Positions 158-33,929 of a DNA stretch of 33,929 bases are shown piece by piece; the first letter of the stretch is position 1, and each line of letters begins with the position of its first letter. The notes beneath the pieces are model-generated. The model searched no databases, was not told the origin of the DNA, and was given only the letters and a program-made list of their open reading frames with translations. A program made the translations under genes and the position numbers. Source of the DNA: Candidatus Fimenecus excrementigallinarum (lineage in GTDB: Bacteria; Bacillota; Clostridia; Oscillospirales; Acutalibacteraceae); assembly GCA_018714805.1 (NCBI GenBank), contig DVMW01000011.1, forward strand, positions 1 to 33,929, in the 5' to 3' direction.

Positions 158-660
158 ATTGCGGCCGGGACGTGTGCCCGTGTCGGGCTGGTTTTGCGGC
201 GGGAGCAAGCCCCCGCCCTACGGTATGCGCGCAATTGCCGATTCTTACACAGCCGGGACGTGTGCCCGTGTCGGACTGGGTATGGCGGGCATGGAAGCCC
301 GCCGCTACGCGGTCTAACATCTAATATCTAACAGCTGATGTCTAACAGGGGAGCAAGCCCCCGCCCTACCGTTCTGACTTCTAACATCTGTATTCTGATT
401 TCTGCCCGGGAAGCCCGCCACTACGCGTTCTAACATCTGATTTCTGAACTCTGAATTCTGACAGGGCTTATCTCTCCCTCCGGCTTTTGCCTGCGGCAAA
501 ACCCACCTCCCTCGTCAGAGGGAGGAATAGTTGTATCTGACTTTTGACTTTGTCCTCCTAACCCGGCATTTAACCTCTGACCTCTGACTTCTGAACTCTG
601 AATTCTGACAGGGGAAGCCGCCGCTGCGCGCACGATTTCGGGTATCCGCTCCCGCTCGCG
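158..660. repeat. Intergenic repeat island A (right arm)
   Basis: This is a mosaic of short modules with no credible gene. Heptad tracts of the form TCTRANN lie at about 314-348, 374-405, 427-464 and 567-612. Between them are hairpin-forming GC-rich modules: 198-217 (GGCGGGAGCAAGCCCCCGCC), a related one at 349-366, GGCTTTTGCC-TGC-GGCAAAA at 482-499 and CCTCCCTC-GTCA-GAGGGAGG at 506-525. A 51-bp module at 249-299 recurs in inverted orientation at 28884-28934 with about six mismatches. All heptads read TCTRANN on the plus strand, as expected for the right arm of an island. Confidence 0.85.
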
Positions 661-2902: not shown

Positions 2903-2923
2903 GGCGGCCTCCTGTTCGGGTTT

Positions 2924-2958
2924 AAAAAAGCGCGTCCCAAAGCCTTGGGACGCGCTTT
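2924..2958 (-). terminator. Intrinsic terminator after lipoprotein gene
   Basis: A perfect 14-bp inverted repeat (2927-2940 against 2945-2958, arm AAAGCGCGTCCCAA) has a 4-base loop and is followed on the minus strand by a run of six U. It sits between the lipoprotein stop and the ribosome binding site of the GH29 gene, so it either ends that transcript or attenuates read-through into the fucosidase gene. Confidence 0.9.
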
Positions 2959-2985
2959 GCTGCGTGGGGGAAGGGTTCTGCGGTT

Positions 2986-4059
2986 TTAGGCGTCGGCGCG
3001 GTCGGCCCAGCCGAACTGGTAGTAGGTGTTCGCGCCGCAGTCGAACTCGACGGTCTGCGTGCCCAGGGGCGCGAGCGTGCCCTCGCCGGTGACGGTGGCC
3101 GTGACGTGCATCGTCCGGTCGTAGGAGAGCGTCAGCAGCTCGTCGGTCGCGGCGTCAAACGTCGCGGTGATGGTCAGCGAGGTGAAGGCCATCTCGTAGC
3201 CGTTTATCGTAAAGGAGTTTTCCGGCCGGTTGAGCTTCTCGAGCACGGCGGCCTCGTCGCGGACGTTTATCGCGCGCAGGATGCTCTGCGTTTCGGGCTT
3301 CACGTGCAGCTCCACCGTGCGGGTAAGCTCGGTGACGACGTCGTTTTCTTCCGAATCCTTTTCGGTCGTTTCGTTGACGGAGGAGTAGGCGGCCTCCAGG
3401 TCCGCGTCCGTCAGCGCGGTCAGGTCGTCGGAGCCGTAGAGGTACAGCAGGTCCGTCAGGTCCGTCCCGGCGGCGAGCGTCTCGTTTTCGGGCAGCACCG
3501 AGGAAATGCCCTGCATCGACATATCCTTAAACAGGCGCGCCGCCTTGGAGATGGGCGAGCCGTCGTCCTGCACGCTGCCCGCCTCGTCCGTAAAGGTGAT
3601 GGTGCCGTCGTCGACCCAGAAGCTTTCCGAACGGATGGTTTCGGGCTTCTGCGCCTTCACGGCGTTGGCGAGCTCCGTGTAATAGGCGAGCACCTCGGTG
3701 CGGTTGCCGTTGAGCGCGGCGAGGTCCGCCTCGTCCAAAAGCCCCATGACGGCGTTAAACACGTCCTCCTTCTCGCCGAAGCGCGCGCGCAGGTCGTAGT
3801 ACCCGAGCTCGACGGTCACGTCGTCGGTCTTGTTTTCGTAATCCTCAAACAGGTTGGAGAGCGTCTCCGCGTCAATCAGGTCGCGCAGCTCCCCGTAGGT
3901 AAAGGTAAAGCGCGCGTCGCGCAGGTCCGTCTTCAAGGTGACCGCGACGGGCTCGGGGCCCGCGTTTGCGGACAGGCTCAGCTCGCAGCCGGAAAACGCG
4001 GCGGCGCACAGCGCCAGGACCAGAACCAGACAGCCAACTTTCCAAACTCTTTTTTGCAT
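2986..4059 (-). CDS. Putative lipoprotein of unknown function
   Basis: A 357-residue secreted protein. The N-terminus has basic residues (MQKRVWK), a hydrophobic stretch and a lipobox-like AAAFSGC, giving a lipidated Cys around residue 24. The rest is acidic and rich in Thr, Asp and Glu with repeated beta-type segments, and no enzyme motif is recognised. Two ATGs lie close together at 4065 and 4059; the AAAGGGGA site touches the first and is well spaced from the second, so 4059 is preferred. It follows the M28 peptidase by 16 bases and is probably cotranscribed with it, ending at the terminator at 2924-2958. The function is unknown; an extracytoplasmic role is inferred from the lipoprotein signal. 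Confidence 0.75.
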   Translation of the reverse strand: MQKRVWKVGCLVLVLALCAAAFSGCELSLSANAGPEPVAVTLKTDLRDARFTFTYGELRDLIDAETLSNLFEDYENKTDDVTVELGYYDLRARFGEKEDVFNAVMGLLDEADLAALNGNRTEVLAYYTELANAVKAQKPETIRSESFWVDDGTITFTDEAGSVQDDGSPISKAARLFKDMSMQGISSVLPENETLAAGTDLTDLLYLYGSDDLTALTDADLEAAYSSVNETTEKDSEENDVVTELTRTVELHVKPETQSILRAINVRDEAAVLEKLNRPENSFTINGYEMAFTSLTITATFDAATDELLTLSYDRTMHVTATVTGEGTLAPLGTQTVEFDCGANTYYQFGWADRADA

Positions 4060-4075
4060 AGTCATTCCCCTTTGC

Positions 4076-5347
4076 TTATTCCTGCGCCTTGGCGGCGTCG
4101 TGCGGAAGACCCTCTGCGTCATAGAGGAACGCGGTTTCCAGCAGCACGTCGATGCCCGCTTCCAGCGTTTTCAAATCCAGATTGTCGGCGGTGTCGCCCC
4201 GGGTGTGGTAGTACCGCGCGGGGGCGGGGTCCATCGCCGCAAGCGTCGCGGCCCGTAGGCCGCTCTGGGCGAGCGCGGCCGCGTCCGACGCGCCGAAAAA
4301 GACCTTGGCGTACGGCAGGTCGAGCCCGGCGTTCTTCGCGCCGCGCTGCACAAGCGCCGCGGCGCCCGCGTCGAGCCGCACAAGGCCGGTCATGTCCTTG
4401 TTGTAAACGCCGAGGAAGGCGTAGTCGCGCAGCGTGTCGGTTACGATGTAGACCGTCTCCACGCCGTCGTCGGGGTGCGCCCTGGCAAACGCCTTCGCCC
4501 CGCGCAGCCCCGCCTCCTCGCAGCCCATGGAGACCGCCGAGACCTCGGTGTGCGCAAAGCGAATGTCGTTGGCGGCGAAAAAGCGCAGCACCGCCATGGA
4601 GGCAAAGACGCCGGTCAGGTTGTCGTTCGCGCCGTCGACCGGGCGCTTCCAGTTGACGAAGAAGGCCCCGGGCAGCACCAGCAGCGTTGTGAGCGCCGCG
4701 AGGACGAGCAGCACGGTGTCCACGGCGCTTGAAAATTCGAAAAAGGCGAGCACGTCGAGCACGAGCTGCACAAAAACGGAGCCGAACGCCGCGCCGACCA
4801 CGGCGGCAAACAGCTTCCCGCCGCCGAGGCGCAGGTACGTCCACTCATAGGCGGAATCCATATGCCCGCAGAAAACGATGCGCCGGCGCACCTCCTTTTC
4901 GGGCGCGCGGGTGCAGATGACGTTCTGCGACCGGCGGCGCGGGAAAAGCGGGTCCAAAAGCGGCTTGTAAAGCAGGAATTCACAGACGAGGAAAAGAAGG
5001 GAAAGCACGGTCAGCGCCGTTGCGGCGGCGAGCGCGGCGGTGCGCCCCGCCCCGAACACGCCCGCAAGCGACAGGCACAGCAGCACCCCGGAGACGAGCA
5101 TCAAAACGACGTCCGTGAGCACCCAGCCCAGAAACGCCTTGGGGTGCAGCTCAAAATCCTCGACCTCCACGCGGTCGGCGACGGATTTCATGGATTCCGC
5201 GACATACGCCTGCGCCCGGCGCTCCGCCTCCTCGCCCGAGGGGCGCGGGCCGATTTCCTTGCAGACGCGCTTGATTTCCCGCGCGGCAAAATTGGCCATT
5301 TCGCGCCGGCGCGAGGGGTAATTTGCATTGCTTTCGCGAGCGAGCAT
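4076..5347 (-). CDS. Membrane-associated M28 family zinc peptidase
   Basis: A 423-residue peptidase of the M28 (aminopeptidase Y) type. The expected metal ligands appear in order: FCGHMDSA (His162), GANDNLTG (Asp242), MGCEEAGLRG (Glu277-Glu278), VTDTLRD (Asp304) and a late YYHTRGDT. Hydrophobic helices occur at about 74-97, 104-127, 177-203 and 208-231, the last two inserted inside the peptidase domain between the first and second ligands. A peptidase fold broken by two membrane segments is the unusual point. The start at 5347 is set by GGAGGT six bases upstream; the ATG at 5353 directly abuts that site. It heads a minus-strand unit with the lipoprotein gene. The substrate is unknown. Confidence 0.85.
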   Translation of the reverse strand: MLARESNANYPSRRREMANFAAREIKRVCKEIGPRPSGEEAERRAQAYVAESMKSVADRVEVEDFELHPKAFLGWVLTDVVLMLVSGVLLCLSLAGVFGAGRTAALAAATALTVLSLLFLVCEFLLYKPLLDPLFPRRRSQNVICTRAPEKEVRRRIVFCGHMDSAYEWTYLRLGGGKLFAAVVGAAFGSVFVQLVLDVLAFFEFSSAVDTVLLVLAALTTLLVLPGAFFVNWKRPVDGANDNLTGVFASMAVLRFFAANDIRFAHTEVSAVSMGCEEAGLRGAKAFARAHPDDGVETVYIVTDTLRDYAFLGVYNKDMTGLVRLDAGAAALVQRGAKNAGLDLPYAKVFFGASDAAALAQSGLRAATLAAMDPAPARYYHTRGDTADNLDLKTLEAGIDVLLETAFLYDAEGLPHDAAKAQE

Positions 5348-20534: not shown

Positions 20535-21122
20535 GTCCAGAAGTCAGAATTCAGAGGTCAGAGTTCAGAGGTCAGAAATTAAAAGTTAAAGCTTACCCTT
20601 TGCCCCCTCAGCAGTCAGAATTCAGAATACAGAGGTCAGAAGTCAGAACCGTAGGGCGGGGGCTTGCTCCCGCCGTTAGAATTCAAAATCAGAACAAACC
20701 CTTTGCCCCCTCTGACGAGGGGGCTGGCGAGCCGAATGCAATGAGGCGAGACTGGGGGAGAGATGAATTAGAACTAAGTGCGTGCTACGCGCCGTTCTCC
20801 GAACGGCGAGAAGGTTCTCTCCCTCCGTCACGCGCTGCGCGCGTGCCACCTCAGGCCCTCTCGCGGTACCCAAAATTTGCCGGCTTGGAGCGCACGGCAA
20901 ATTTTGACCGCTTCGCCGCCCTCGCCTCGCTTTTTCCGCCACCGGCGGCGCTTCGGCGACGGCGCCCGTCAGAGGGAGGAAAAAGGTTACATCTGACTTT
21001 TGGCTTTGTCCTCCTAATCCGACATTGAACATCTGACTGCTGACCTCTGACTTCTGAACTCTGAAATCTGACCAGGGCGACCAACGTCTAACGTCTAGCA
21101 TCTAAAATCTAAAATCTAGCAT
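20535..21122. repeat. Intergenic repeat island B
   Basis: The left arm has heptads in the NNTCAGA orientation (20538-20591, 20609-20647) and a GGCGGGGGCTTGCTCCCGCC module at 20656. The core holds a CCCCCTC-TGAC-GAGGGGG hairpin (20706-20723), a variant of the common one with both sides changed, a TCACG...CGTGCC stem near 20828 and the 157-bp repeat. The right arm has heptads in the TCTGANN/TCTAGNN orientation (21019-21073, 21082-21122), which run into the M18 aminopeptidase gene and supply its stop codon. No credible gene is present. Confidence 0.88.
20851..21007. repeat. 157-bp repeat, copy 2
   Basis: Near-identical to 1-157, same orientation, 20.85 kb away. The 12-bp hairpin arms are at 20871-20882 and 20895-20906 and are unchanged. 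Beyond about 21007 the two copies diverge into different heptad modules. Confidence 0.9.
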
Positions 21123-22518
21123 AGAACGCCGCGCAGGCTTGGTAGGTCATATAGACGTCGAGCTTGGAGACGACCTCGAACGGCGCGTGCATGGACAGCA
21201 CCGGCACGCCGACGTCCACGACGTCGATGTCCTGCGCCGCCAAAAACATGGCGACCGTCCCGCCGCCGCCCGCGTCCACCTTGCCGAGCTCGGCGCATTG
21301 CCAGTAAACGCCCGCGTCGTCAAGCGTCCGGCGCACCCACGCCATGTATTCGGCCGACGCGTCGGAGGTGCCGCTCTTGCCGCGCGCGCCGGAATACTTC
21401 ATCAGCGCGACGCCGCGGTTCAAAAAGGCCGCGTTCGCGCGCTCGTAGGCGTCGGGGAAGGTCGGGTCAAACGCCGCGGTCACGTCGGCGGACAGGCTTT
21501 TGGTGTTGGAGAGGGCGATGCGGACGTTCTCGCCGCGCGCAAGGCAGAGGTCGGTCAGGAAATGGCGCAGGTACGCGGAATTGAGCCCTGTGTTGCCGTC
21601 GGAGCCAATCTCCTCCTTGTCGGTGAGCACCGCCACGGCCGTATGGACGGGCGTGCCCTCTATGGCGAACAGCGCCTCGGCCGCCGGATACGCGCAGACG
21701 CGGTCGTCGTGGCCGTAAGCGCCAATCATGCTGCGGTCCAGGCCGATGTCGCAGGCGCGAAACGCCGGGACGACCTCCAGCTCGGCGCTCAGGAAGTCCG
21801 CCTCCGTCACGCCGTACTTTTGGAACAGAAGGTCGAGAATGTTGAGCTTCACAAGCTCCGAGGCCTCGTCGTCGGCAAACGGGCGGCTGCCCACAAGCAC
21901 GTTGAGCTCTTCGCCGCGCACGCCGTCGGCGAGCGTCCGCTTCATCTGCTCGTTTGCCAGATGCGGCAGCAGGTCGGTCACGACAAAGCGCGGCTCGTCG
22001 TCGCGTTCGCCGATGCAAACGGGCACCGCTTCGCCGTCCCGGCGGACCACGACGCCGTGCAGCGCCAGCGGCAGGCTCGTCCACTGGTACTTTTTGATGC
22101 CGCCGTAGTAATGCGTTTTGAAAAGCGCGAGCTCGTCGGCCTCATACAGCGGGTTGGGCTTTAGGTCGAGCCGCGGGGAGTCGATGTGCGCCGCGGTCAG
22201 GCGCAGGCCCGCCTCGAGCGGCTGCTCGCCCAGAACGGCGAGCACGACCGCCTTGCCGCGGTTGCAAAGGTAAACGCGGTCGCCGCTTTCGTACCGGCGC
22301 TTCGGGTCAAATTCCGAAAAGCCGCGCTCTTTTGCGCGCGAAACCAGAAAGGCCGCCGCCTCGCGCTCGGTCTTGCCCGCGTCCAAAAACGCCTTGTACC
22401 CCTCGCAGAACGCGTCCGCCGCCGCCTGCGCTTCGGCAGAGAGGGCCTTCGCCGCGTTCTGCCGCTTGTAAAACAGCGCTTCCTTTTTCATTTCCACCGT
22501 GCTTTTTTCTTCAGTCAT
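21109..22518 (-). CDS. M18 family aminopeptidase
   Basis: A 469-residue cytosolic zinc aminopeptidase of family M18, which removes N-terminal residues (often acidic) from peptides. Family features in order are RLTAAHIDSPRLDLKPNP (first metal His/Asp), YGGIKKYQW, GAYGHDDRVCAYPA (bridging Asp), VLTDKEEIGSDGNTGLNS (catalytic Glu-Glu) and a late VPVLSMHAPFEVVSKLD (metal His). The start at 22518 with AAAGGAGC is clear and overlaps the transglycosylase stop by 8 bases (ATGACTGA). The last residues ARF and the TAG stop are written by island B heptads, so the C-terminus may have been slightly altered when the repeat arrived. Confidence 0.93.
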   Translation of the reverse strand: MTEEKSTVEMKKEALFYKRQNAAKALSAEAQAAADAFCEGYKAFLDAGKTEREAAAFLVSRAKERGFSEFDPKRRYESGDRVYLCNRGKAVVLAVLGEQPLEAGLRLTAAHIDSPRLDLKPNPLYEADELALFKTHYYGGIKKYQWTSLPLALHGVVVRRDGEAVPVCIGERDDEPRFVVTDLLPHLANEQMKRTLADGVRGEELNVLVGSRPFADDEASELVKLNILDLLFQKYGVTEADFLSAELEVVPAFRACDIGLDRSMIGAYGHDDRVCAYPAAEALFAIEGTPVHTAVAVLTDKEEIGSDGNTGLNSAYLRHFLTDLCLARGENVRIALSNTKSLSADVTAAFDPTFPDAYERANAAFLNRGVALMKYSGARGKSGTSDASAEYMAWVRRTLDDAGVYWQCAELGKVDAGGGGTVAMFLAAQDIDVVDVGVPVLSMHAPFEVVSKLDVYMTYQACAAFYARF

Positions 22519-23107
22519 GGTTCAAAAGCTCCTTTTCATATAAAACTTCATATATGCGCACCGCCCGCCGCACCTTGCGCACGTAATGCGCCGTGGCGCG
22601 CGAGGGGATTGTGTCCAGATGTGTGCCGTCCGCCGAATACCGCCCGTCGGCAAGCCAGCGGTTGACCTGCCCGCGCCCCGCGTGGTAGGCGGCCGCGGCC
22701 GTCGCGGTATCGCCGTCGAATTCGTCAAGCAGCAGCCGCAGGAACACCGCGGTGTATTTTGCCGCAACGTCCGGCTCGAACAGCGCCTCCTTCGGCAGGG
22801 TCTCGCCGGTCTTGGTTTGCAGCCACGAAAAGGTTTCGGGCGTAATCTGCGTTAATCCCAGCGCCCCCGCCTCGGACACCGCCGACGGGTCAAAGCCGCT
22901 TTCGGTGTGGGCGACCGCATACAGCAGCGCGCGGTCTATGCCGCTGTCGTCCGCCGCCTGCTCGATTTCCGCCCGGTACGCAAGCGGGAACGCCGCCCGC
23001 AGCGCCGCATACGTCCCGAGCCCCGCCGCAAAAAGCAGGCCTGCCGCAAGCAGGAGCGCCGCCCACCGCCTGCCGCGCCGGCCGGGCCGTTTTACCGCCC
23101 GCCTCAT
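22511..23107 (-). CDS. Lytic transglycosylase (SLT domain, GH23)
   Basis: A 198-residue membrane-anchored enzyme that cleaves peptidoglycan between MurNAc and GlcNAc, forming 1,6-anhydro ends. After basic residues there is one membrane helix (about 15-38), then the SLT domain with catalytic Glu69 in AVAHTESGFDPSAVSEAGAL, the GLTQITPETF motif and AAAYHAGRGQV, which corresponds to the usual AYNAG with His for Asn. The start ATG at 23107 overlaps the coaE stop by four bases (ATGA), and its end overlaps the aminopeptidase start by eight. This is the conserved Firmicutes arrangement coaE followed by slt. Confidence 0.93.
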   Translation of the reverse strand: MRRAVKRPGRRGRRWAALLLAAGLLFAAGLGTYAALRAAFPLAYRAEIEQAADDSGIDRALLYAVAHTESGFDPSAVSEAGALGLTQITPETFSWLQTKTGETLPKEALFEPDVAAKYTAVFLRLLLDEFDGDTATAAAAYHAGRGQVNRWLADGRYSADGTHLDTIPSRATAHYVRKVRRAVRIYEVLYEKELLNHD

Positions 23108-23685
23108 GTCGGGAACACCCGGCGAATCTCGTCCTCGAGCGCGTAGGGCGGGTAATTGCGAATCACCGCGTCGCACCGCGCGAGGTACCAGTCGGCGGCG
23201 TGCTGCGCTTCTATGCGCCGGCGCGCCTGTGCCTCCGTTATGTCGTCGCGCGCCAGGATACGCGCCAGCCGGACGTCCGCGGGGGCGACGACGGCGACGG
23301 TGCGCGTGCAAAGCGCGTCCTGCCCGCTCTCAAACAGGGCGACCGCGTCGAGCAGGACCGTGTCGGTCCCGGCCTTTTCCAGGGCGCCGAGCTGTTCGCG
23401 GACCGCCGCCGTGACCGCCGGGTGGACAATCGCGTTGAGCGTTTCGAGCGCCTTTTTCGACGAAAACGCCGCCTTTGCCAGCGCGGGGCGGTCGATATGG
23501 CCGTCGGTAGTTAAAATTTGACTGCCGAACGCCGCCGCCAGCCGCTCGACGACCGGCGAGCCGGGTATGTACAGGTTTTTCGCCGTGCGGTCGGCGTCGA
23601 TGTGCGCCCAGCCGCGCTTTTGCAGCGCCAGGCAGACCGTGCTTTTGCCCGCGCCCGTCTGCCCCGTTATGCCGATGACTTGCAT
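23104..23685 (-). CDS. coaE: Dephospho-CoA kinase
   Basis: A 193-residue cytosolic kinase that phosphorylates the 3' hydroxyl of dephospho-CoA, the last step of coenzyme A synthesis. It shows the P-loop GITGQTGAGKST (5-16), the HIDADRTAKNLY segment with the substrate-site Asp, IVHPAV, LLDAVALFESG and the lid region RILARDDITEAQARRRI. It begins the coaE-slt-aminopeptidase operon. The start has a GGAAAGG site; directly upstream (from 23702) is island C, whose heptads end 16 bases before the start codon, so the promoter must lie inside or beyond the island. Confidence 0.96.
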   Translation of the reverse strand: MQVIGITGQTGAGKSTVCLALQKRGWAHIDADRTAKNLYIPGSPVVERLAAAFGSQILTTDGHIDRPALAKAAFSSKKALETLNAIVHPAVTAAVREQLGALEKAGTDTVLLDAVALFESGQDALCTRTVAVVAPADVRLARILARDDITEAQARRRIEAQHAADWYLARCDAVIRNYPPYALEDEIRRVFPT

Positions 23686-23701
23686 AAAAATCGCCTTTCC
23701 G

Positions 23702-24240
23702 GTTTTAGATGCTAGATTCTAGATGCTAGATTCTAGATGCTAGATGCTAGATGTTAGCTGTTAGATGCTGGATGGTAGATGCTGGATGCTGAAATAGGCA
23801 GATAAAGCCAAAAGTCAGCACCTACTTTTCCTCCCTCTGACGAGGGAGGTGGCTTTTGCCTACGGCAAAAGCCGGAGGGAGAGATACAGAAAAGTAAGAT
23901 TTGCCGTATCTCTCCCCCAGTCACGGTGTCGTTCCTCCACCGTGCCAGCCCCTGACGGGGGCCGTCCCCTTTGTCCGCTGCGCGGACATTTCCCCGCACC
24001 GCGGGGAATCACCCTCGTCAGAGGGGGCAAAGGGTAAACTTTAACTTTTAATTTCTGACTTCTAACCTCTGTATTCTGATTTCTGAAAGCTGAGGGGGCA
24101 AAGGGTGTGTTCTGACTTCTGACTTCTGCCCTCTGAATTCTGACAGGGCCCGCCACTACGCGTTCTAACGTCTAATATCTGGCATCTAGCATCTATCATC
24201 TAGCATCTACCATCTAATATCTAGCATCTAGCATCTAGAA
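23702..24240. repeat. Intergenic repeat island C
   Basis: The left arm (23702-23795) is a run of heptads of the form YTAGATG beginning GTTTTAGATGCTAG. The core (23830-24025) is a train of hairpins listed separately. The right arm has TCTGANN heptads at 24036-24088 and 24107-24145, then TCTAGNN heptads at 24158-24240, ending CTAGCATCTAGAAC, so the outer ends are inverted copies of each other. The right arm enters the GH13 gene and supplies its TAG stop at 24221-24223. Confidence 0.88.
23830..24025. repeat. Train of eight hairpins in the core of island C
   Basis: Consecutive perfect stems: CCTCCCTC/GAGGGAGG (23830-23849), GGCTTTTGCC/GGCAAAAGCC (23851-23873), GGGAGAGATAC/GTATCTCTCCC (23877-23916), CACGGTG/CACCGTG (23922-23944), CCCC/GGGG around TGAC (23949-23960), GTCCGC/GCGGAC (23973-23987), TTCCCCGC/GCGGGGAA (23990-24008) and CCCTC/GAGGG around GTCA (24012-24025). 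The first two, with part of the next, occur in reverse order and orientation at 470-525 in island A. Confidence 0.85.
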
Positions 24241-26089
24241 CAGCGCAGTCCATTGCGCCGACGCGCACGCAGGAGGTCACAGGGGCGCCGTGGAGCCGTT
24301 CGCGGGCGAAGTGCCATTCCTCGCGCAGGTTGTAGACAATGTCGTGCTCGTTGCGGTTGGCGATAACCAGCAGCGCGCCCGCCGGGGAGCGCCGGGCGTA
24401 GGCGACGCAGCCGAGCACATGGGAGACGAAATCCATCGTCCCGTCCCGCAGCACGGGCAGCGCGCGCCGCAGCGCGCCGAGCCGCCGGTAAAACGCCAAA
24501 AGGTCCTCGTCCTCGCTGCCCCACGGGTAGTATCCGCGGTTGAACGGGTCCTTATACCCCTGCATCCCGGCCTCGTCGCCGTAGTAGAGGCACGGCACGC
24601 CGGGCAGGGTGTATTGCAGCACGGCCGCAAGCTTCAGAAGCCGCTTCCCCTTTTCATACGCCGCGTCCGACAGCTTCTGCGCCGCCTGCCACGCGCGGTC
24701 GTGGAAGCGCGCGCGCTCGCCGGCAAGATAGGTGACGGCGCGCTCGGTGTCGTGCGTGCCGATGTGGTTCATCAAAACGTCGAGCACCGGCTTCGGGTAA
24801 TGCTCCAGGATGGGGCTCACCGCGCGGTAAAATCCGTCCGCGTCGCCGCCGCGGGCAAATTCGAGCACCGCGTTTGCGAACGGGTAATTCATCACGCTGT
24901 CGAGCTGCCCGCCCAAAAGATAGTGCCGCCGCGCGCCGTAGGCCCATTTCGTCGTCGCGTCCTCCCAGACCTCGCCGAGCACAAGCGCGTCGGGCTTTTC
25001 GGCCTTTGCGGCCCGGCGCAGCGCGTCGAGAAAGGCGTCGGGCAGCTCGTCGGCGACGTCCAGCCGCCAGCCGGACGCCCCGGCCCGAAGCCAGCGGCGC
25101 ACCACGCCGTTTTCCCCGGTGATGAATTCGAGGTACGCGGGGTCGGTCTCGTTGACCTCGGGGAGCGTTTCAAAGCCCCACCAGCTTTTGTAGGCGTCCG
25201 GGTACTGCGTGAAGCTGTACCACGAAAAATACGGCGACGCCTCGGAATTGTACGCGCCGACCGTGTCGTAGCGGCCCTCGCGGTTGAAATAGCGGCTGTC
25301 CGAGCCCGTGTGGGAAAACACCCCGTCGAGCACGACGCGCATCCCGTGCTTTTCCGCCGCGCGGCAGAGCTTGCGAAAATCCGCCTCGGTCCCGAGCAGC
25401 GGGTCGATTTTTTCGTAATCCGCGGTGTTGTAGCGGTGGTTCGAATGCGCCTCGAAGATTGGGTTCAGGTACAGGCACGTCACGCCGAGGCTTTCGAGGT
25501 ACGGGAGCTTTTCACAGATGCCCGCAAGGTCGCCGCCGAAATAGTCGTTGTTGCGGACCTCGCCGGTCTCGTCCGGCTGCCAGTAGGGCGGGTTCTGCGT
25601 GTCGGCGCGCAAAATGCGGTCGGCCGGCACGTTTTGCTTCGGCGCGCCGGAATTGTAAAAGCGGTCGGGGAAAATCTGGTACATCACGCCGCCCTTGAGC
25701 CAGTCCGGGGTCCGAAACGCCCGGTCGTAAACCGTCAGCTGCCAGCTTTGCCGCGCCTCGGCCGAGAGCAGCACGCCCACGCCGTCGCCGTTGTGGTAAA
25801 CGCCGCCGCGCCCCCAGGCGGAGTCGTATGCAAAATGGTAAAAGTAAAGCCCGGGCGCATCGACCGAAAGCGTGATGTCCCAGACCTCGTGGTCGTCGCC
25901 GTACATCCCCGCCCAGTACATCGCCCGGTCCGCGGCCGCCTCGCCGTCGCGCTGCAAAAGCAGGTGCGCCGCGCACACCCCGAAGGCGCGCGGCAAAACC
26001 AGGCGCAGCCGAAACGGCCGCTGCGTTTCGACGGCGCCCGGCACGTCCTTGTAGTAGCGGTCGGTCGGGAAATACGGGGTAGGGTTCAT
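24221..26089 (-). CDS. GH13 alpha-amylase family enzyme (neopullulanase/cyclomaltodextrinase-like)
   Basis: A 622-residue glycoside hydrolase acting on alpha-1,4 and possibly alpha-1,6 glucans. Residues 1-125 form a beta-rich N-terminal domain. The barrel shows GGVMYQIFPDRF (133-144), DGVFSHTG (255-262), GWRLDVADE with nucleophile Asp344, LGEVWEDA with acid/base Glu373, and NHIGTHDTER with Asp447. No signal peptide is present, so it should work in the cytosol on imported maltodextrins. The start at 26089 has a CAGGAGCG site; the longer frame from 26164 is island D sequence. The last residues VLDARC and the stop codon come from island C heptads. Confidence 0.93.
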   Translation of the reverse strand: MNPTPYFPTDRYYKDVPGAVETQRPFRLRLVLPRAFGVCAAHLLLQRDGEAAADRAMYWAGMYGDDHEVWDITLSVDAPGLYFYHFAYDSAWGRGGVYHNGDGVGVLLSAEARQSWQLTVYDRAFRTPDWLKGGVMYQIFPDRFYNSGAPKQNVPADRILRADTQNPPYWQPDETGEVRNNDYFGGDLAGICEKLPYLESLGVTCLYLNPIFEAHSNHRYNTADYEKIDPLLGTEADFRKLCRAAEKHGMRVVLDGVFSHTGSDSRYFNREGRYDTVGAYNSEASPYFSWYSFTQYPDAYKSWWGFETLPEVNETDPAYLEFITGENGVVRRWLRAGASGWRLDVADELPDAFLDALRRAAKAEKPDALVLGEVWEDATTKWAYGARRHYLLGGQLDSVMNYPFANAVLEFARGGDADGFYRAVSPILEHYPKPVLDVLMNHIGTHDTERAVTYLAGERARFHDRAWQAAQKLSDAAYEKGKRLLKLAAVLQYTLPGVPCLYYGDEAGMQGYKDPFNRGYYPWGSEDEDLLAFYRRLGALRRALPVLRDGTMDFVSHVLGCVAYARRSPAGALLVIANRNEHDIVYNLREEWHFARERLHGAPVTSCVRVGAMDCAVLDARC

Positions 26090-26103
26090 GAACAGCGCTC
26101 CTG

Positions 26104-26494
26104 TTTTAGATGCTAGCCGGTAGATGCTAGATGTTAGATGCCGGATGCTGAAATGGGCGGACAAAACCGAAAGTCGGCAGCAACTTTTCCTCCCTCAGCT
26201 GTCAGAAATCAGAATACAGAGGTCAGAGGTCAGATGTTCAATGCCGGATTAGAAGGAGAAGGCCGAAAGTCAGCAGCAACTTTTCCTCCCTCTGACGAGG
26301 GAGGAAAGGTTATATCTTACTTTTGGTTTTGCTGAAACCTATCCCCACGCGTTCTGACTTCTGAATTCTGACCTCTGAATTCTGACAGGGCAAGCCCCCG
26401 CCCTACCGTTCTGACGTCTAACTTCTAATATCTACCATCTACCATCTAACATCCAGCATCTATCATCTAGAATCTAGCATCTAATATCTAAAAC
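26104..26494. repeat. Intergenic repeat island D
   Basis: The left arm is heptads YTAGATG (26104-26152) then NNTCAGA (26197-26243). The core holds CCTCCCTC-TGAC-GAGGGAGG (26285-26304) and a GCAAGCCCCCGCCC module at about 26390. The right arm is TCTGANN (26350-26390) then TCTANNN heptads (26408-26490), ending ATCTAATATCTAAAAC. The outer ends GTTTTAGATGCTAG and its counterpart are inverted. The order of subtypes is mirror-symmetric. It runs 15 bases from the GH13 start and into the uracil-DNA glycosylase stop. Confidence 0.88.
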
Positions 26495-27050
26495 CCAAAT
26501 CGCCGAGCTTTTCGCGCAGGGCGCAGAAATCGGCGAGGGCGTCGCCCTTTTGCGCGGGGTTGCGCAGGAGGGCGGCGGGGTGGTAGGTGCCCATCACCCA
26601 CCGCCCGTCTTTTTGGTAAAACCGCCCGTGCTCGCGCGTGACGCGGAAATCCGGCCGGATGAGCAGCTGCGCCGCGATACGCCCGAGACAGACGAGCACG
26701 CGCGGCTGCAAAAGCCGAATCTGCTCGCGCAGCCACGGCGCGCAGGCCGCCTGCTCCTCCTCGCGCGGGTCGCGGTTCTGCGGCGGCCGGCACTTGACGA
26801 TGTTTGCAATATAGACGTTCGTCTCCCGGGACAGCCCGACGTGGTACAGGTATTTGTCCAACAGCTGCCCGCCGCGGCCGACGAACGGCTCGCCGGTTTT
26901 GTCCTCCTGCTCGCCGGGGCCTTCGCCGACAAACAGGATTTTGGCGTCCTGCGCCCCCGCGCCGAACACAACGTTCTGCCGCGTCTCGCACAGCCCGCAT
27001 TTGCGGCAGGCAAGGCATTCCGCGCGCAGCGCAGAGAGGGTTTCGGCCAT
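26481..27050 (-). CDS. Uracil-DNA glycosylase, family 4 (Fe-S type)
   Basis: A 189-residue DNA repair enzyme that removes uracil from DNA. Family 4 features are the iron-sulfur cysteines Cys15, Cys18 (CRKC), Cys87 (NIVKCRPPQNRDP) and Cys103, the active-site GEGPGEQEDKTGEPFVGRGG (41-60) and the HPAAL motif in GTYHPAALLRNP. Spacing matches the family. The start at 27050 follows AAAGGAGCC. It lies 91 bases after the radical SAM gene, and the two probably share a transcript. The C-terminal FRY and TAG stop are written by the first heptads of island D. Confidence 0.95.
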   Translation of the reverse strand: MAETLSALRAECLACRKCGLCETRQNVVFGAGAQDAKILFVGEGPGEQEDKTGEPFVGRGGQLLDKYLYHVGLSRETNVYIANIVKCRPPQNRDPREEEQAACAPWLREQIRLLQPRVLVCLGRIAAQLLIRPDFRVTREHGRFYQKDGRWVMGTYHPAALLRNPAQKGDALADFCALREKLGDLGFRY

Positions 27051-27057
27051 GGCGGAC

Positions 27058-27161
27058 GGCTCCTTTCGTGATAGTTAGAAATTATCTATCTGACGTAGCC
27101 GCCCGGTTCAGGCGGTTCCTTTCGCGATAGTTAAAAATTATCTACTCGGCGCTGCCGCCCG
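27058..27161. repeat. Tandem duplication of about 50 bp between radical SAM and UDG genes
   Basis: The block GGCTCCTTTCGTGATAGTTA at 27058 is repeated from 27113 with an offset of 55 bases; both blocks continue through AAATTATCTA to GCCGCCCG. The first copy contains the ribosome binding site of the glycosylase gene; the second ends inside the last codons of the radical SAM gene and includes its TAG stop (27142-27144). Each copy has an imperfect GATAGTTA/AAATTATC stem. Confidence 0.8.
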
Positions 27162-28602
27162 CTTCTCCGCCTTCCGCCCGCTTTTTCTCCGCCTCGGCGC
27201 GGCCCTCGGGCGTGTCGCGGTAATACTGGGTGTGCGTGTCGCGGTGCGGGGTCGAATCCCAGATGCGCTGCGCCTCCGGCGCCCAGGCCTTCGCAAAGGC
27301 GACGCATTTGTCACAGAGCGTGTCGACGTCCTCGGCGTGCAGCAGGTCCGAGCTTTTCGCGCCGCTGCGCTTGACCATCTCGCGCAGGCGCTCCGGGTTT
27401 TCCAGAAGCGGGCACGGGCGCAGGTGGTTGTCGTTGAAGGGCTGGTTGTGGTAGTATTCGGTGAACAGCGGGGACTTGAGCGCCTCCAAGAGCGTGTGCG
27501 TGCGGATGTTCGCGTCGGAAAAATGGATAAAGACGCACGGCTCGATGTCGCCCGCGGAATTGATGTGGAAATAGTTGCGCCCGCCGGCGATGCACCCGCC
27601 GACGTATTCGCCGTCGTCCTGGAAATCCATGACGAACATCGGCTTGCCGGTTTTGGAATTGCGCATTTTCTTAACCCAGCCGTACATATGCTCGCGCTGG
27701 GCGGGCGTCGGGATAAGCGCGGGGTCGGCGTCGTGGCCGACGGGCATATAGTTGAAGTACAGCCCGTATTTCACGCCCTTTTCGAGCGCCATATCGATAA
27801 AATCGTCGCTGGTGACCATGTCGACGTTTTTCGCGGTGTAGCAGACCGAAATGCCGAACAGGCACTTGTTTTGCTTTAAGAGGTCCATCGCCTCGAGCGT
27901 TTTTTTGTACGCGCCCTCGCCGCGCCGCCAGTCGTTGGAGGCCTCGGTGCCCTCGAGACTTAACGCCAGGCTGATGTTGCCGCAGTCGTTCATGTCCTCG
28001 CAGAACTTCTGGTCGACGAGCGTCGCGTTCGTGTAGATGACGAAGGTGCAGTCGCGGTTCTCGCGCGCCAGCGCCACGATGTCGTTTTTTCGGATGAGCG
28101 GCTCGCCGCCGGTGAGCATATAAAAATGCGTGCCCATGGCCTTGCCCTGCGAGACGATGGACTGCATCTCTTCATTCGTCAGGCTCTGCTTGTGGCCGTA
28201 TTCCGCCGCCCAGCAGCCTTTGCAGTGCAGGTTGCACGCGCTTGTCGGGTCAAACAGGATGATGAACGGCACGTTGCAGTGCAGCTCCTCGCGCAGCCGG
28301 CGCACGGTTTTGGTGCCGTATAGCCCCGCGTCCACGCCGAGCGACAGCAGCATCTGCCGCACGACGCGCGGGTCGATGTCGCGCAGGAGATTGACGGCGT
28401 ACTGCGTCCAGACGTTGTCGGGGTCGGACGCGGCCGCCTTGAATTTTTGGAAGTTTTCCGACGGGAACAGCCCCGAAAACAGCATGCCGACGCGGTCGGC
28501 CAGCTTTTCGAGGTTCGGGTACGGGTCCTTGTAGACGTATTTCAGAATCTTGTCGAGGGCAAGCGCGATAGCGGCGCGCTGCACCTTGTGGGAATTTGCC
28601 AT
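27142..28602 (-). CDS. Radical SAM protein with extra C-terminal cysteine region
   Basis: A 486-residue radical S-adenosylmethionine enzyme. A helical N-terminal region (1-115) precedes the cluster motif CNLHCKGC (Cys123, Cys127, Cys130), then MLTGGEPL (the SAM-binding GGEP), TNATL and LEGTEASND. The C-terminal part has further cysteines in GGCIAGGRNYFHINSAGDIEPC, RPCPLLEN and LCDKCVAF, as in SPASM-like auxiliary cluster domains. The substrate is unknown; no precursor peptide gene is visible nearby, so peptide maturation is not supported by context. The start at 28602 with AAAGGAAA is preferred over the longer frame from 28680, which would begin inside the promoter. Confidence 0.88.
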   Translation of the reverse strand: MANSHKVQRAAIALALDKILKYVYKDPYPNLEKLADRVGMLFSGLFPSENFQKFKAAASDPDNVWTQYAVNLLRDIDPRVVRQMLLSLGVDAGLYGTKTVRRLREELHCNVPFIILFDPTSACNLHCKGCWAAEYGHKQSLTNEEMQSIVSQGKAMGTHFYMLTGGEPLIRKNDIVALARENRDCTFVIYTNATLVDQKFCEDMNDCGNISLALSLEGTEASNDWRRGEGAYKKTLEAMDLLKQNKCLFGISVCYTAKNVDMVTSDDFIDMALEKGVKYGLYFNYMPVGHDADPALIPTPAQREHMYGWVKKMRNSKTGKPMFVMDFQDDGEYVGGCIAGGRNYFHINSAGDIEPCVFIHFSDANIRTHTLLEALKSPLFTEYYHNQPFNDNHLRPCPLLENPERLREMVKRSGAKSSDLLHAEDVDTLCDKCVAFAKAWAPEAQRIWDSTPHRDTHTQYYRDTPEGRAEAEKKRAEGGEAGGSAE

Positions 28603-28675
28603 TGCTTTGTTTCCTTTCTGCCGTGCGGCGGACCGCGGCCCGCACCGTTCCGGCGTCTGCGTACCAAGCGCTTCT

Positions 28676-28704
28676 ATCATACCACGAACCCGCGGGTTTG
28701 TAAA
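28676..28704 (-). promoter_or_regulatory. SigA-type promoter with spacer palindrome for radical SAM gene
   Basis: On the minus strand TTTACA (28704-28699), 17 bases, TATGAT (28681-28676). The spacer contains a perfect 12-bp palindrome AACCCGCGGGTT (28687-28698), which may be a repressor site. It leaves a leader of about 65 bases before the start codon. Confidence 0.82.
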
Positions 28705-28710
28705 CAGGCA

Positions 28711-29283
28711 AGCCCGGTCAGAATTCAGAGGTCAGATATTAGACACTAGATGCTAGATGCTAGATGTTAGACGCCAGATGCTGAAATGGGCGGACAAAAC
28801 CGAAAGTCAGCTGTCCCCGTTCCTCCCCGGTCAGAATTCAGAGGTCAGAGGTCAGAAGTCAGAAGTCAGAACGCGTAGTGGCAGGCTTCCACGCCCGCCA
28901 TACCCAGTCCGATACGGACACTCGCACCGGCTGTGATGAAAATAAATTCCTACAGCGGTAGGGGCGGGACTCCGTGCCCGCCCGTACACAGTCTGGCAAG
29001 GACACACGTTTCGGCTGTGATGAAAACCGAAAGTCAGCAGCAACTGTTCCTCCCTCTGACGAGGGAGGAAAGGTTATATCTGACTTTTGGTTTTGCTGAA
29101 ACCTATCCCCACGCATTCTGACTTCTGACATCTGTATTCTGATTTCTGACAGCTGAGGGAGGAAAAGTTATATCTGACTTTTGGCTTTGTCCTCCTAATC
29201 CGGCAACCCGCGTCTAACGTCTAGCATCTAGTGTCTAATATCTGACTTCTGATTTCTGAATTCTGACCTCTGCCTGCTGATTT
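28711..29283. repeat. Intergenic repeat island E
   Basis: The left arm has NNTCAGA then YTAGATG heptads (28717-28786) and again NNTCAGA (28829-28872). The middle has a 51-bp module (28884-28934) inverted relative to 249-299, a GGGGCGGGACTCCGTGCCCG stem near 28963, and CCTCCCTC-TGAC-GAGGGAGG (29049-29068). The right arm has TCTGANN (29116-29157) and then TCTAGNN followed by TCTGANN (29207-29280). The order of subtypes mirrors the left arm. A T-rich stretch (29281-29340) follows before the ymfF promoter. No gene is present. Confidence 0.88.
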
Positions 29284-32009: not shown

Positions 32010-33047
32010 ATGCGCTTTTTCACAGACGGCGTGGAGGTCGTTTTCACCGGCATCGACCACCCGTTCACCGCCTATTCGACCTTTGTCGAATTTTCGCTGT
32101 TCGGCCACGACTTCAGCATCAAATTCTACGGCCTTATCATTGCGTTCGGCTTCCTTCTGGCGGTGCTGTTCGGCGGACGGATGGCGTACAAATGGAAGCT
32201 GGACTTAAACAAGATGCTCGACGTGCTGCTGTTCGGCACGATTGGCGGCATTGTCGGCGCGCGGCTGTACTACGTCGCGTTCGAGTGGGACTACTACAGC
32301 CGCCACCTGTCCGAAATCCCGCAGATTTGGGAGGGGGGCCTTGCCATTTACGGCGGGCTTATCGGCGCAATCCTTGCGGCGTTTCTCACCTGCCGCAAAA
32401 ACGGCCTTAACTTCCTCAAGCTCATGGACCTTGCGGGCATGAGCTTCCTTATCGGCCAGGGCATCGGCCGCTGGGGCAACTACGCGAACCAGGAGGCGTT
32501 CGGCACCAACACGACCGGCTTTTTGGGGATGTCGAGCGACAAGGTCGAGCACTATATCCGGACGCACGAGGCCGAATTTTCGGCGCGCGGGTTTTCCATG
32601 GACCCGTCCTTACCCGTACACCCGACGTTCCTCTATGAATCGGTCTGGTGCATTTTCAGCTTTTTCGTGCTGTACCTCATCTGCAAAAAGGCCTACAAAT
32701 TCAGCGGCCAGCTCATTTTGGGCTACGGCATCCTCTACGGCGCGGAGCGCGCGGTGGTCGAGGGGCTGCGCACCGACAGCCTGTATATCGGCGAAACGAC
32801 GCTGCGCGTCTCGCAGGTGCTCTCCATGGCGCTCGTCGCCGTGTGCCTGGCCGTTTTGATTTGGAAGCTTGTAAAGCTGCACAAAAACCCCGTGCCGTTT
32901 TCGCCGGTCGAGACGCCCACAGAAACGCCGCCGGCCGAAAAAAAGCCCTCGCGCCGGGCGGTCCGCGCCGAGGCGAAGGCGGCAAAGGCAAAGCTCTTGG
33001 AAAAACAGGAAGGAGAGACGTCCGATGGCGACAATCTTAGACGGTAA
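32010..33047 (+). CDS. lgt: Prolipoprotein diacylglyceryl transferase
   Basis: A 345-residue integral membrane enzyme that transfers diacylglycerol from phosphatidylglycerol to the lipobox cysteine, the first step of lipoprotein maturation. About seven helices lie between residues 38 and 288. The signature GQGIGRWGNYANQEAFG (149-165) and GGLAIYGGLIGA (109-120) are clear. A lysine- and alanine-rich cytoplasmic tail of about 50 residues (from 295) exceeds most homologues. The start at 32010 has GGGGAGGA. Its substrates in this window include at least the lipoproteins at 2986, 15330 and 18635. It overlaps folD by 23 bases. Confidence 0.95.
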   Translation: MRFFTDGVEVVFTGIDHPFTAYSTFVEFSLFGHDFSIKFYGLIIAFGFLLAVLFGGRMAYKWKLDLNKMLDVLLFGTIGGIVGARLYYVAFEWDYYSRHLSEIPQIWEGGLAIYGGLIGAILAAFLTCRKNGLNFLKLMDLAGMSFLIGQGIGRWGNYANQEAFGTNTTGFLGMSSDKVEHYIRTHEAEFSARGFSMDPSLPVHPTFLYESVWCIFSFFVLYLICKKAYKFSGQLILGYGILYGAERAVVEGLRTDSLYIGETTLRVSQVLSMALVAVCLAVLIWKLVKLHKNPVPFSPVETPTETPPAEKKPSRRAVRAEAKAAKAKLLEKQEGETSDGDNLRR

Positions 33048-33879
33048 GGCGGTCTCGGCGCACGTAAAGGCCGAGGTAAAACGGGAGGTCGAGGCGCTCG
33101 CAAAGCAGGGCGTTTCGGTTTCGCTCGCGGTCATTCTCGTCGGCGACGACCCCGCCTCGCACACCTATGTGCGCAACAAGGAAAAGGCGTGCGCCGAAGC
33201 GGGCATCCGGTCGAAAACCTACCGCCTGCCGGCCGACACGACCGAACAGGCGCTGCTCGCGCTCGTCGAAACGCTCAACGCCGACAAGGCGGTCAACGGC
33301 ATCCTCTGCCAGCTGCCGCTGCCGAAGGGCCTGAACGAAGCCGCGGTGATTGCCGCCGTTTCCCCCGAAAAGGACGTCGACGCCTTCCATGCCGTCAACG
33401 TCGGCCGCATCATGCTCGGGAATTACGCGTTCCTCCCCTGCACGCCGGCGGGGATTGTCGAGCTGCTCGACTACTACCGCATCGACCCGGCCGGGAAGCG
33501 CTGCGTCGTAATCGGGCGCAGCAACATCGTCGGCAAGCCCATGGCGATGCTCCTTCTGCACCGCGACGCCACGGTGACGGTCTGCCATTCGAAAACCGAG
33601 GACCTCGCCGCAATTACCAAAACCGCCGACATCCTCGTCGCGGCGGTTGGCAAGCCGCGCTTTGTGACCGCCGATATGGTCAAGCCCGGCGCGGTCGTCA
33701 TCGACGTCGGCATGGACCGCGACGAAAACGGCAAGCTCTGCGGCGACGTGGACTTTGCCGCGGTCGAGCCGAAGGCCGCCTGCATCACGCCCGTGCCCGG
33801 CGGCGTCGGCCCGATGACCATCGCCACGCTCTTGAAAAACACCGTCACCGCCGCCAAGCTCCAAAACGGCCTGCGCTGA
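33025..33879 (+). CDS. folD: Bifunctional methylenetetrahydrofolate dehydrogenase/cyclohydrolase
   Basis: A 284-residue cytosolic enzyme that interconverts 5,10-methylene-, methenyl- and 10-formyl-tetrahydrofolate with NADP. It has the family sequences SHTYVRNKEKACAEAG with Tyr48 and catalytic Lys54, GILCQLPLPKG, KDVDAFHAVNVG, the cofactor loop VVIGRSNIVGKPMA and ITPVPGGVGPMT near the end. The length is typical. The start at 33025 lies inside lgt with a GGAAGGAGAG site, so it is translated from the same message. Island F begins at its stop codon with no separate terminator seen in the window. Confidence 0.96.
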   Translation: MATILDGKAVSAHVKAEVKREVEALAKQGVSVSLAVILVGDDPASHTYVRNKEKACAEAGIRSKTYRLPADTTEQALLALVETLNADKAVNGILCQLPLPKGLNEAAVIAAVSPEKDVDAFHAVNVGRIMLGNYAFLPCTPAGIVELLDYYRIDPAGKRCVVIGRSNIVGKPMAMLLLHRDATVTVCHSKTEDLAAITKTADILVAAVGKPRFVTADMVKPGAVVIDVGMDRDENGKLCGDVDFAAVEPKAACITPVPGGVGPMTIATLLKNTVTAAKLQNGLR

Positions 33880-33929
33880 CAGAATGCAGAGGGCAGATAT
33901 TAGACGCTAGATGCTAGATGCTAGACGCT
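33880..33929. repeat. Repeat island F (left arm, cut by window end)
   Basis: Directly after the folD stop the heptads CAGAATG, CAGAGGG, CAGATAT, TAGACGC, TAGATGC and TAGATGC follow in phase, the same subtype order and orientation as the left arm of island E. The rest lies outside the window. Confidence 0.85.

Follow-up and report, generated by a model that had tools for sequence, protein, structure and literature searches.

Inward-pointing heptad arrays around hairpins in Candidatus Fimenecus excrementigallinarum, tentatively read as accreting REP-like repeats

Introduction

Arrays of degenerate 7-base units (heptads) lie between genes in a 33,929-nt stretch of DNA from Candidatus Fimenecus excrementigallinarum. 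This stretch, hereafter the window, is contig 49 of a draft genome (G000) of 1.87 Mb that is 97% complete. The arrays are grouped into islands, in which TCAGANN and YTAGANN units (TCAGA and TAGA heptads below) stand on either side of GC-rich hairpins. An earlier note on this DNA had claimed that the islands share one inverted plan, with forward units at the left and reverse units at the right, and had put them forward as an undescribed system. Here we describe the islands and the orientation, junctions and turnover of their arrays, and follow the inward orientation into other bacteria and viruses. With somewhat less than even confidence, we read the islands as composite non-coding palindromic repeats that accrete, resembling repetitive extragenic palindromic (REP) sequences and their hairpin-forming doublets (REPINs), with a hairpin scaffold and a copied heptad block.

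Results

Islands of the window

An array is counted here when three or more exact cores follow one another. The window contains 16 such arrays, 12 of them within 20535–29283; 100 Markov-1 simulated windows, taken together, contained none. Island A begins with five NNTCAGA heptads (20544–20576, forward strand) and a second left-arm TCAGA array with one degenerate unit (20615–20647, forward), which is preceded by the hairpin 5' half TTTGCCCCCTC at 20599–20609. Its right arm, on the reverse strand, consists of TCAGA heptads with one degenerate unit (21032–21071) and TAGA heptads (21087–21119) that contain the stop codon of an M18 aminopeptidase gene (open reading frame [ORF] 21109–22518). Island B opens with TAGA heptads (23705–23765, forward), followed by a constant frame, GGAGGTGGC...GCCGGAGGGAGAG (23845–23883, forward), that encloses a hairpin variable between copies. 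On the reverse strand, the hairpin 5' half GAGGGGGCAAA then occurs twice within 24021–24102, at 24021 and 24092, 71 bp apart. The right arm continues on that strand with TCAGA heptads including one degenerate unit (24111–24143), a GTAG hairpin represented by its 5' half alone (24148–24161) and TAGA heptads (24164–24238) containing the amylase stop codon (24221–24223).

The left arm of island C holds degenerate TAGA heptads (26106–26150, forward) and TCAGA heptads at the tip of a CCTCCCTC hairpin half (26202–26234, forward), followed by the hairpin core TTCCTCCCTCTGACGAGGGAGGAA (26283–26306). Five TCAGA heptads (26353–26385), a GTAG hairpin 5' half (26390–26406) and partly degenerate TAGA heptads (26410–26491), which contain the stop codon of a uracil-DNA glycosylase gene (26481–26483), form the right side, all on the reverse strand. 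The next three islands of the earlier note (D, E and F) together make up a single imperfect palindrome of ~550 bp (about 28716–29268). Its outer left arm has three TCAGA and then five TAGA heptads (28718–28771, forward), and its inner left arm six TCAGA heptads (28831–28870, forward). Two complete, REP-like GTAG hairpins (28875–28899 and 28958–28982, both forward) and a second TTCCTCCCTCTGACGAGGGAGGAA core (29047–29070) follow. On the reverse strand, the inner right arm consists of TCAGA heptads with one degenerate unit (29117–29149), and the outer right arm runs from TAGA to TCAGA (29213–29266), mirroring the outer left order. The mirrored subtype order claimed for D and E is seen across the joined D-F.

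Two further islands lie at the window outside 20535–29283. One is represented by right arms at 313–608 (reverse), the other by a left arm at 33877–33929 (forward) that starts where a FolD-type gene (ORF 33025–33879) ends in its TGA stop and continues to the contig end. Altogether, four unrelated genes have their stop codons inside or next to heptads, at 21109, 24221, 26481 and 33877, three within TAGA arrays and the fourth adjoining. Some C-terminal residues are therefore encoded by repeats, such as FYARF in the M18 protein of G000 and FFEEK in kin. Nine neighbouring proteins were compared with Pfam. Two had no match, and the others are of ordinary kinds: an M18 and an M16 peptidase, SLT transglycosylase, dephospho-CoA kinase, alpha-amylase, uracil-DNA glycosylase and a radical-SAM protein. 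An Rfam search of the window gave no match and ARAGORN no tRNA.

Arrays point inward across the genome

The pattern TCAGANNTCAGANNTCAGA matched 122 times in G000, and the same pattern read backward as a control did not match. Our genome sample consists of the window and 20 further stretches around listed matches, which cover part of the matching places in the genome; these 21 stretches contain 87 arrays (54 reverse, 33 forward). Two or more arrays within 700 bp were taken as a cluster, giving 24 clusters. In 22 of them every forward array lies before every reverse one, a number that includes one-orientation clusters, some cut by contig ends; the random expectation is a mean of 11.9 of 24, with a best of 19 in 5000 trials. 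The tandem period-7 arrays thus form convergent pairs in which the inward-pointing strand is purine-rich (TCAGANN). The inverted plan is real, and a random mixture of orientations within arms, named beforehand by the earlier note as evidence against it, is rejected. The exceptions are L053, which is real, and L038, which is an artefact of the self-complementary CTAG core.

All four islands, A, B, C and D-F, have forward arrays at the left and reverse arrays at the right. Because A sits between convergent genes, B and C between tandem genes and D-F between divergent genes, the plan is independent of gene direction. The island middles contain compact GC-rich hairpins, as had been claimed. Orientation is thus shared, but the claim that both arms carry the same units was too strict: the left arm of B has only TAGA heptads and that of A only TCAGA heptads, while the right arms of both carry both kinds, and in L043 three tandem units of array plus half-hairpin are confined to one arm. 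The order of subtypes is mirrored in C and D-F in the window and in L042 and L051 elsewhere, and not in A or B.

Facing arms are independent

Facing arms resemble each other no more than unrelated arms, with a heptad likeness of 0.781 (n=18) against 0.783 for arms of different islands (n=879; p=0.60), which indicates that the arms are independent. Each island is able to fold as a long stem crowned by hairpins, as the earlier note had said. We shuffled heptads within arrays, 20 times per island, in seven islands, leaving out L051 and L054 (>1000 nt). The fold energy was within 1.4 standard deviations of the shuffles in A, B, C, L043, L047 and L056; D-F alone, one of the seven, folded better than its shuffles (z=-3.3). 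Thus the lack of excess pairing between arms over shuffled heptads, which the same note had named as refuting its claim, was found in six of seven islands and not in D-F. Flipping the right-arm arrays weakened the fold in 7/7 islands, a result that merely restates polarity. Fold-back copying, in which one arm would serve as template for the other, was considered as well; it is not supported for most islands, given the likeness values and the six islands whose shuffles fold equally well, with D-F as the exception.

Copies of one block follow hairpin halves

Three hairpin families recur in the islands. The first is GTAG followed by a GC-rich hairpin; the second is a palindrome with longer arms, CCTCCCTC-TGACG-GAGGGAGG or TTCCTCCCTC-TGACG-GAGGGAGGAA; the third is a frame, GGAGGTGGC...GACGGAGGGAGAG or GAGGGAGGTGG...GGAGGGAGAG, that encloses a hairpin varying between copies. 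The frame GAGGGAGGTGG...GGAGGGAGAG, at 23845–23883 and in other G000 stretches, carried ten hairpin forms in 25 matches across the 21 stretches, with pairing retained as judged by eye. The hairpins within this constant frame look exchangeable as cassettes.

TCAGA arrays have exactly five units in 28/48 cases and AT as the first spacer in 40/48. These shared features mark them as copies of one block. A motif search of the 5' side of these 48 arrays found a GTAG hairpin half in 18, another hairpin half in 9, another array in 15 and none of these in 6. In equal 60-nt windows, GTAG hairpins near the TCAGA arrays of G000 were complete in 0/17 cases on the 5' side and in 19/28 on the 3' side (0/17 and 17/23 when the windows were unequal). 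GTAG halves precede arrays on both strands, without always forming pairs. In the contexts listed, the 3' half of an interrupted GTAG hairpin was not seen beyond an array. The listed TCAGANN and YTAGANN arrays contain no GGG run, the G-tract by which a quadruplex would be recognized.

Turnover between related species

The alpha-amylase beside island B has protein matches in 39/39 congeners, the match in G030 being distant. We read the amylase gene ends in G000, the sister species (G037), G024, G025 and G038, and in the outgroups G036 and G033. TAGA-type heptads run across the stop codon in the five clade members, worn in some, and in 0/2 outgroups, and the interior of the island is variable. 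At the island B site the sister species reads CCCTTTGCCCCCTC|TGACGAGGG, with the hairpin tip intact. At that point G000 has the 71-bp array-bearing unit that lies between the two GAGGGGGCAAA copies and ends in the second of these hairpin halves, and this unit is absent from the sister's site. It is bounded by a repeat of the hairpin half and lies in one arm only. Terminal inverted repeats with a target duplication and a cognate transposase are the marks of a miniature inverted-repeat transposable element (MITE) or other insertion-sequence derivative.

Other sites differ as well. The D-F site measures 573 bp in the sister species and 738 bp in G000; the gene flanks and hairpins are kept in the sister, and not even a two-heptad run is present. 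The L047 site spans ~113 bp with four worn TAGA units in the sister and ~925 bp in G000. Overall, the sister genome has 43 hairpin-core matches (≤1 mismatch) but 2 TCAGA matches, against the 122 in G000. By these comparisons, the hairpins, together with some of the TAGA arms, are the older parts, and the TCAGA block either expanded in G000 in recent times or disappeared from the sister. Within the genus, TCAGA matches occur in 4/39 genomes, G000 included, and in an even draw from the family 8/150 genomes carry TCAGA heptads.

Turnover of this kind bears on a selected function, in which the islands would serve as large bidirectional terminators or mRNA 3'-end structures and might be bound by proteins, for example cold-shock proteins, that recognize 7 nt of single strand. 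A transcript from either side does meet purine-rich heptads, hairpins and then pyrimidine-rich heptads, and four window genes have their stop codon in or at an array. Additionally, the heptamers of Xanthomonas lie near the end of the upstream ORF (PMC4692102), and CspB is reported to bind heptamer repeats (PMC4679880). We nevertheless regard such a function as quite improbable, because the same genes can carry arrays in one sister species and lack them in the other, and because, by eye, the M18 gene of G024 and G025 has its heptads behind an intact terminator that is absent in G000 and G037. Elsewhere there is also no sense bias relative to stops: a crude ORF count gave 33 sense and 33 antisense arrays in genome contigs and 37 and 67 in viral contigs, and the idea that arrays are always sense-oriented behind a stop codon was kept only for the window genes.

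Search for a resident enzyme

The earlier note had proposed that a REP-type transposase co-occurs with the islands. Our enzyme searches covered Y1_Tnp (PF01797) and RVT_1 (PF00078) alone, other recombinase families not being searched, in a G000 draft that is 97% complete. Y1_Tnp had no match at E≤0.001 in G000, nor in G037 or G038, and one weak match in G025; RVT_1 had no match in G000, G025 or G037 and one in G038. In the family sample, Y1_Tnp was found in 1/8 heptad carriers (G119, a weak match) against 69/142 non-carriers (Fisher p=0.07). The proposed co-occurrence was thus not borne out, and neither a REP-type transposase nor a reverse transcriptase is supported as a resident engine. We also considered an autonomous element between the distant forward and reverse arrays of L048, a span of 4.2 kb with a 976-aa ORF (2192–5122); the ORF has no Pfam match at E≤0.001, and nothing marks it as a transposase.

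These results weigh on the possibility that the islands are non-autonomous mobile elements of the REPIN, MITE or small dispersed repeat (SDR) class, moved by an enzyme that acts in trans and targets hairpins, with nested palindrome insertion building the islands. The GTAG hairpins, the similar dispersed blocks and the junctions at hairpins are what such elements would leave, REP dimers inside longer palindromes are in print (PMC3733652), and in Nostoc calcicola some GGGAAAG heptad pairs are, by eye, flanked by inverted GTAG hairpins. The near absence of Y1_Tnp from G000, its kin and the carriers of the family argues the other way, as does the observation that, where an array interrupts a GTAG hairpin, the missing 3' half was not seen on the far side in the contexts listed. 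On balance we consider mobile elements of this kind rather unlikely.

Polarity in other bacteria and in viruses

A four-unit TCAGANN pattern matched at least 115 genome stretches and at least 120 viral stretches. Cyanobacteria, Bacteroidota, Acidobacteria, Verrucomicrobia, Planctomycetes, Chloroflexi and Proteobacteria are among the matches listed. Inverted array pairs among these matches (at least two units, within 600 bp) were convergent rather than divergent by 10:0 in genome loci and 12:1 in viral contigs. Two paired-pattern scans of viral contigs, possibly near-duplicate in part, found 15 convergent and 0 divergent stretches. Fifteen whole genomes of other groups, reached through named loci already carrying the TCAGA pattern, gave 27 distinct convergent sites in 8 genomes and no divergent site; the 27 are a manual count from 45 overlapping forward matches, and a few are internally mixed. 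The same close-spaced convergent pattern had no match in G000 and three kin.

Polarity also extends to other units. Where the left arm lacked TCAGA and TCTGA, 23 inverted pairs were G>C in 19 and C>G in 3; where neither arm contained them, 21 pairs from 14 loci were G>C in 17 and C>G in 3, with one tie. These pairs come from loci fetched for TCAGA, AGACT or period-8 patterns and are partly non-independent. A sample of 1.41 Mb, taken at round positions from contigs that stem partly from hit lists, in seven groups of genomes picked for carrying heptads, contained 20 inverted heptad pairs, 18:2 G-rich inward, with 16/20 from a single Nostoc genome (15:1); one Planctomycete in it had no heptad array. 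As polarity controls in this sample, the 69 pairs of period 5 included 34 G>C and 28 C>G, and the five of period 6 included 1 and 4; period 8 gave no pair and period 9 gave 1 and 0. Inward polarity is therefore not special to Clostridia. AGACTNN, tried as a control pattern (80 stretches), proved a poor one, many of its matches being either heptads of the form TCAGACT or a single phage sequence that recurs.

In eukaryotes, interstitial telomere fusions likewise have the repeat strand pointing inward from both sides, and they are made by telomerase and end fusion. By analogy, a repeat-adding polymerase could extend 3' ends at breaks or hairpin cuts, the ends then being joined, so that on each side the G-rich strand is directed, 5' to 3', towards the joint. 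Such addition would account for the 27:0 sites in the 15 genomes, the 15:0 viral stretches, the 17 G>C against 3 C>G pairs (one tie) without TCAGA or TCTGA, the 18:2 pairs in 1.41 Mb and the independence of the arms, and a bacterial telomerase-like reverse transcriptase that makes tandem repeats, DRT10, does exist (PMC12632851). It is made improbable by the lack of an RVT_1 match in G000, G025 and G037, a point that also separates G000 from the telomere fusions, by the derivation of the G000 TCAGA arrays from one block, and by facing flanks that are not always halves of one sequence (island C).

Among arrays of at least four units in the 1.41 Mb, 139 had period 7, far more than the 14 with period 6 or the 10 with period 8 (75 had period 5, by a lax test). 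In the pattern scans, a period-8 control matched 32 stretches against at least 120 for period 7. An excess at one period could reflect pure polymerase slippage, with local birth and expansion of heptads at quasi-palindromes, favoured by a purine-rich new-strand end. The number of units in TAGA arrays does vary between species, and slippage is already in print as an idea for heptamer excess (PMC4692102). As a sole cause we judge it very improbable, since the recurrence of one five-unit block, first spacer included, at many places indicates copying between sites.

Two side observations concern these distant loci. In L168, L174, L187 and L238, unlike heptad units (such as GCATGGA, GGATTGC, CCAGTAA and GATCGGT) stand side by side, all at period 7. 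In L220 and L222, TCAGA heptads lie, by eye, apparently within a long open frame that looks like that of a rhamnosidase-type protein.

Discussion

We propose, tentatively, that the islands grow by accretion. Older modules, namely the GTAG hairpins, the TGACG palindrome and the constant frame, would have formed the scaffold first. A TCAGANN block, usually of five units, would then have passed between islands by copying and been inserted at a hairpin tip, leaving the G000 array behind a hairpin 5' half and in place of the 3' half. With hairpins on both strands, this one rule would yield forward heptads at the left and reverse heptads at the right, and since the same tip rule would act on both strands, the mirror plan would be a by-product of polarity and not a designed stem. 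Template switching or gene conversion seems the likely step: synthesis may stall at a hairpin tip, the new strand may switch to another island, copy the block and the next hairpin half, and return. Dispersed copies would serve as donors, and slippage would alter heptad number. Such accretion would account for arrays behind 5' halves, repeated hairpin halves, independent arms, the identity of the block, and turnover without a resident transposase. The data show the polarity, the copying of the block, the junctions at hairpin 5' halves in G000, the independence of the arms, the turnover relative to the sister species and the lack of Y1_Tnp and RVT_1 matches, while stalling, template switching and slippage are inferred.

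Several points weigh against accretion. The change at island B is partly a replacement, in which an adjoining segment that included the 3' part of a GTAG hairpin was exchanged, and not a clean insertion; the global alignment of G000 and the sister species is poor there, and the comparison is a direct reading of the sequences. In kin, the 5' GTAG hairpins of arrays are sometimes complete (4 complete and 10 incomplete in G038, 1 and 1 in G025), and arrays also stand behind intrinsic terminators (by eye). The reading is slightly weakened because arrays of kin also follow complete hairpins, and the mobile-element alternative gains marginally. The D-F arms match each other beyond shuffled heptads, as expected of fold-back copying. 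A mobilising enzyme may have been lost, or may belong to a family other than PF01797 or PF00078. No synthesis step was observed. Template switching also fails to account for the 7-base period, and for a purine-rich strand that points inward even in unrelated bacteria whose units are different.

Because period 7 and the shared polarity go unexplained by accretion, there is room for one common process, and the inward rule in unrelated bacteria hints at a shared DNA process. Heptad arrays across phyla and units may follow a single rule, with a period of 7 and the G- or purine-rich strand running 5' to 3' into the symmetry axis. They would be built by one conserved period-7 synthesis that acts on the tips of hairpins or on 3' ends at breaks and has a telomere-like outcome, and the islands of the window would be a baroque, later recombined case. 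We regard this broader proposal as doubtful.

The islands are a variant of a known, unexplained kind. Convergent pairs of GGGAATC heptamers number 70 and 75 in two Xanthomonas genomes, and Nostoc has G-rich heptamers (PMC4692102). Like the G000 arrays, these have degenerate units of period 7, are intergenic, lie close behind the upstream gene and form convergent pairs; in contrast, the G000 units TCAGANN and YTAGANN lack G-tracts, and the islands form long mosaics in which several hairpin families occur and heptad blocks have been copied. The earlier note, which knew of no family with an inverted plan in Clostridia and saw an undescribed system, was therefore half right, given the polarity in other groups, the Xanthomonas pairs and the REP-like GTAG hairpins. 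GTAG REPs and REPINs have a GC-rich hairpin, often occur as inverted pairs, and are reported as dimers inserted into longer palindromes (PMC3733652, PMC3116915). The G000 hairpins share the GTAG tag beside a GC-rich hairpin but are halved and continued by heptads, and we found no Y1 gene of the kind of REP-associated tyrosine transposases in G000.

TAACTGA heptamers of Beggiatoaceae, Cyanobacteria and Bacteroidetes are likewise intergenic arrays, patchy over distant groups, but theirs are nearly all direct sets (169 direct-repeat sets and one indirect in the main genome), mostly before start codons (PMC4679880). DRT10 synthesizes tandem repeats, with a 9-nt period in one system (PMC12632851); the search of G000 for a reverse transcriptase, by RVT_1, gave no match. 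Intrastrand triplex repeats have been tied to instability (PMC4666352). In the literature searched, which left most subscription journals outside, we found no description of these islands and no unit-independent polarity rule. The SDR elements of Nostoc (Elhai et al. 2008) are said to be 21–27 nt long and nested in each other and in heptameric repeats; their sequences reportedly differ from those described here, and they are not known to have a mirror plan.

Heptamer excess in bacteria has been published, but no explanation of it has been tested; in 2015, when the slippage idea was passed on, heptameric repeats were said to have no detailed literature (PMC4692102). A fixed polarity relative to a symmetry axis, across groups and units, makes the question testable, as the maker of the heptads distinguishes the two ends. 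G000 is a useful case: with a TCAGA block that probably spread recently and a sister species nearly without it, gains are datable and junctions readable. Comparison with the sister also showed that two genes adjacent there (L608) lie on separate G000 contigs (L054, L056), each next to an island; islands may be rearrangement breakpoints or, alternatively, assembly breaks.

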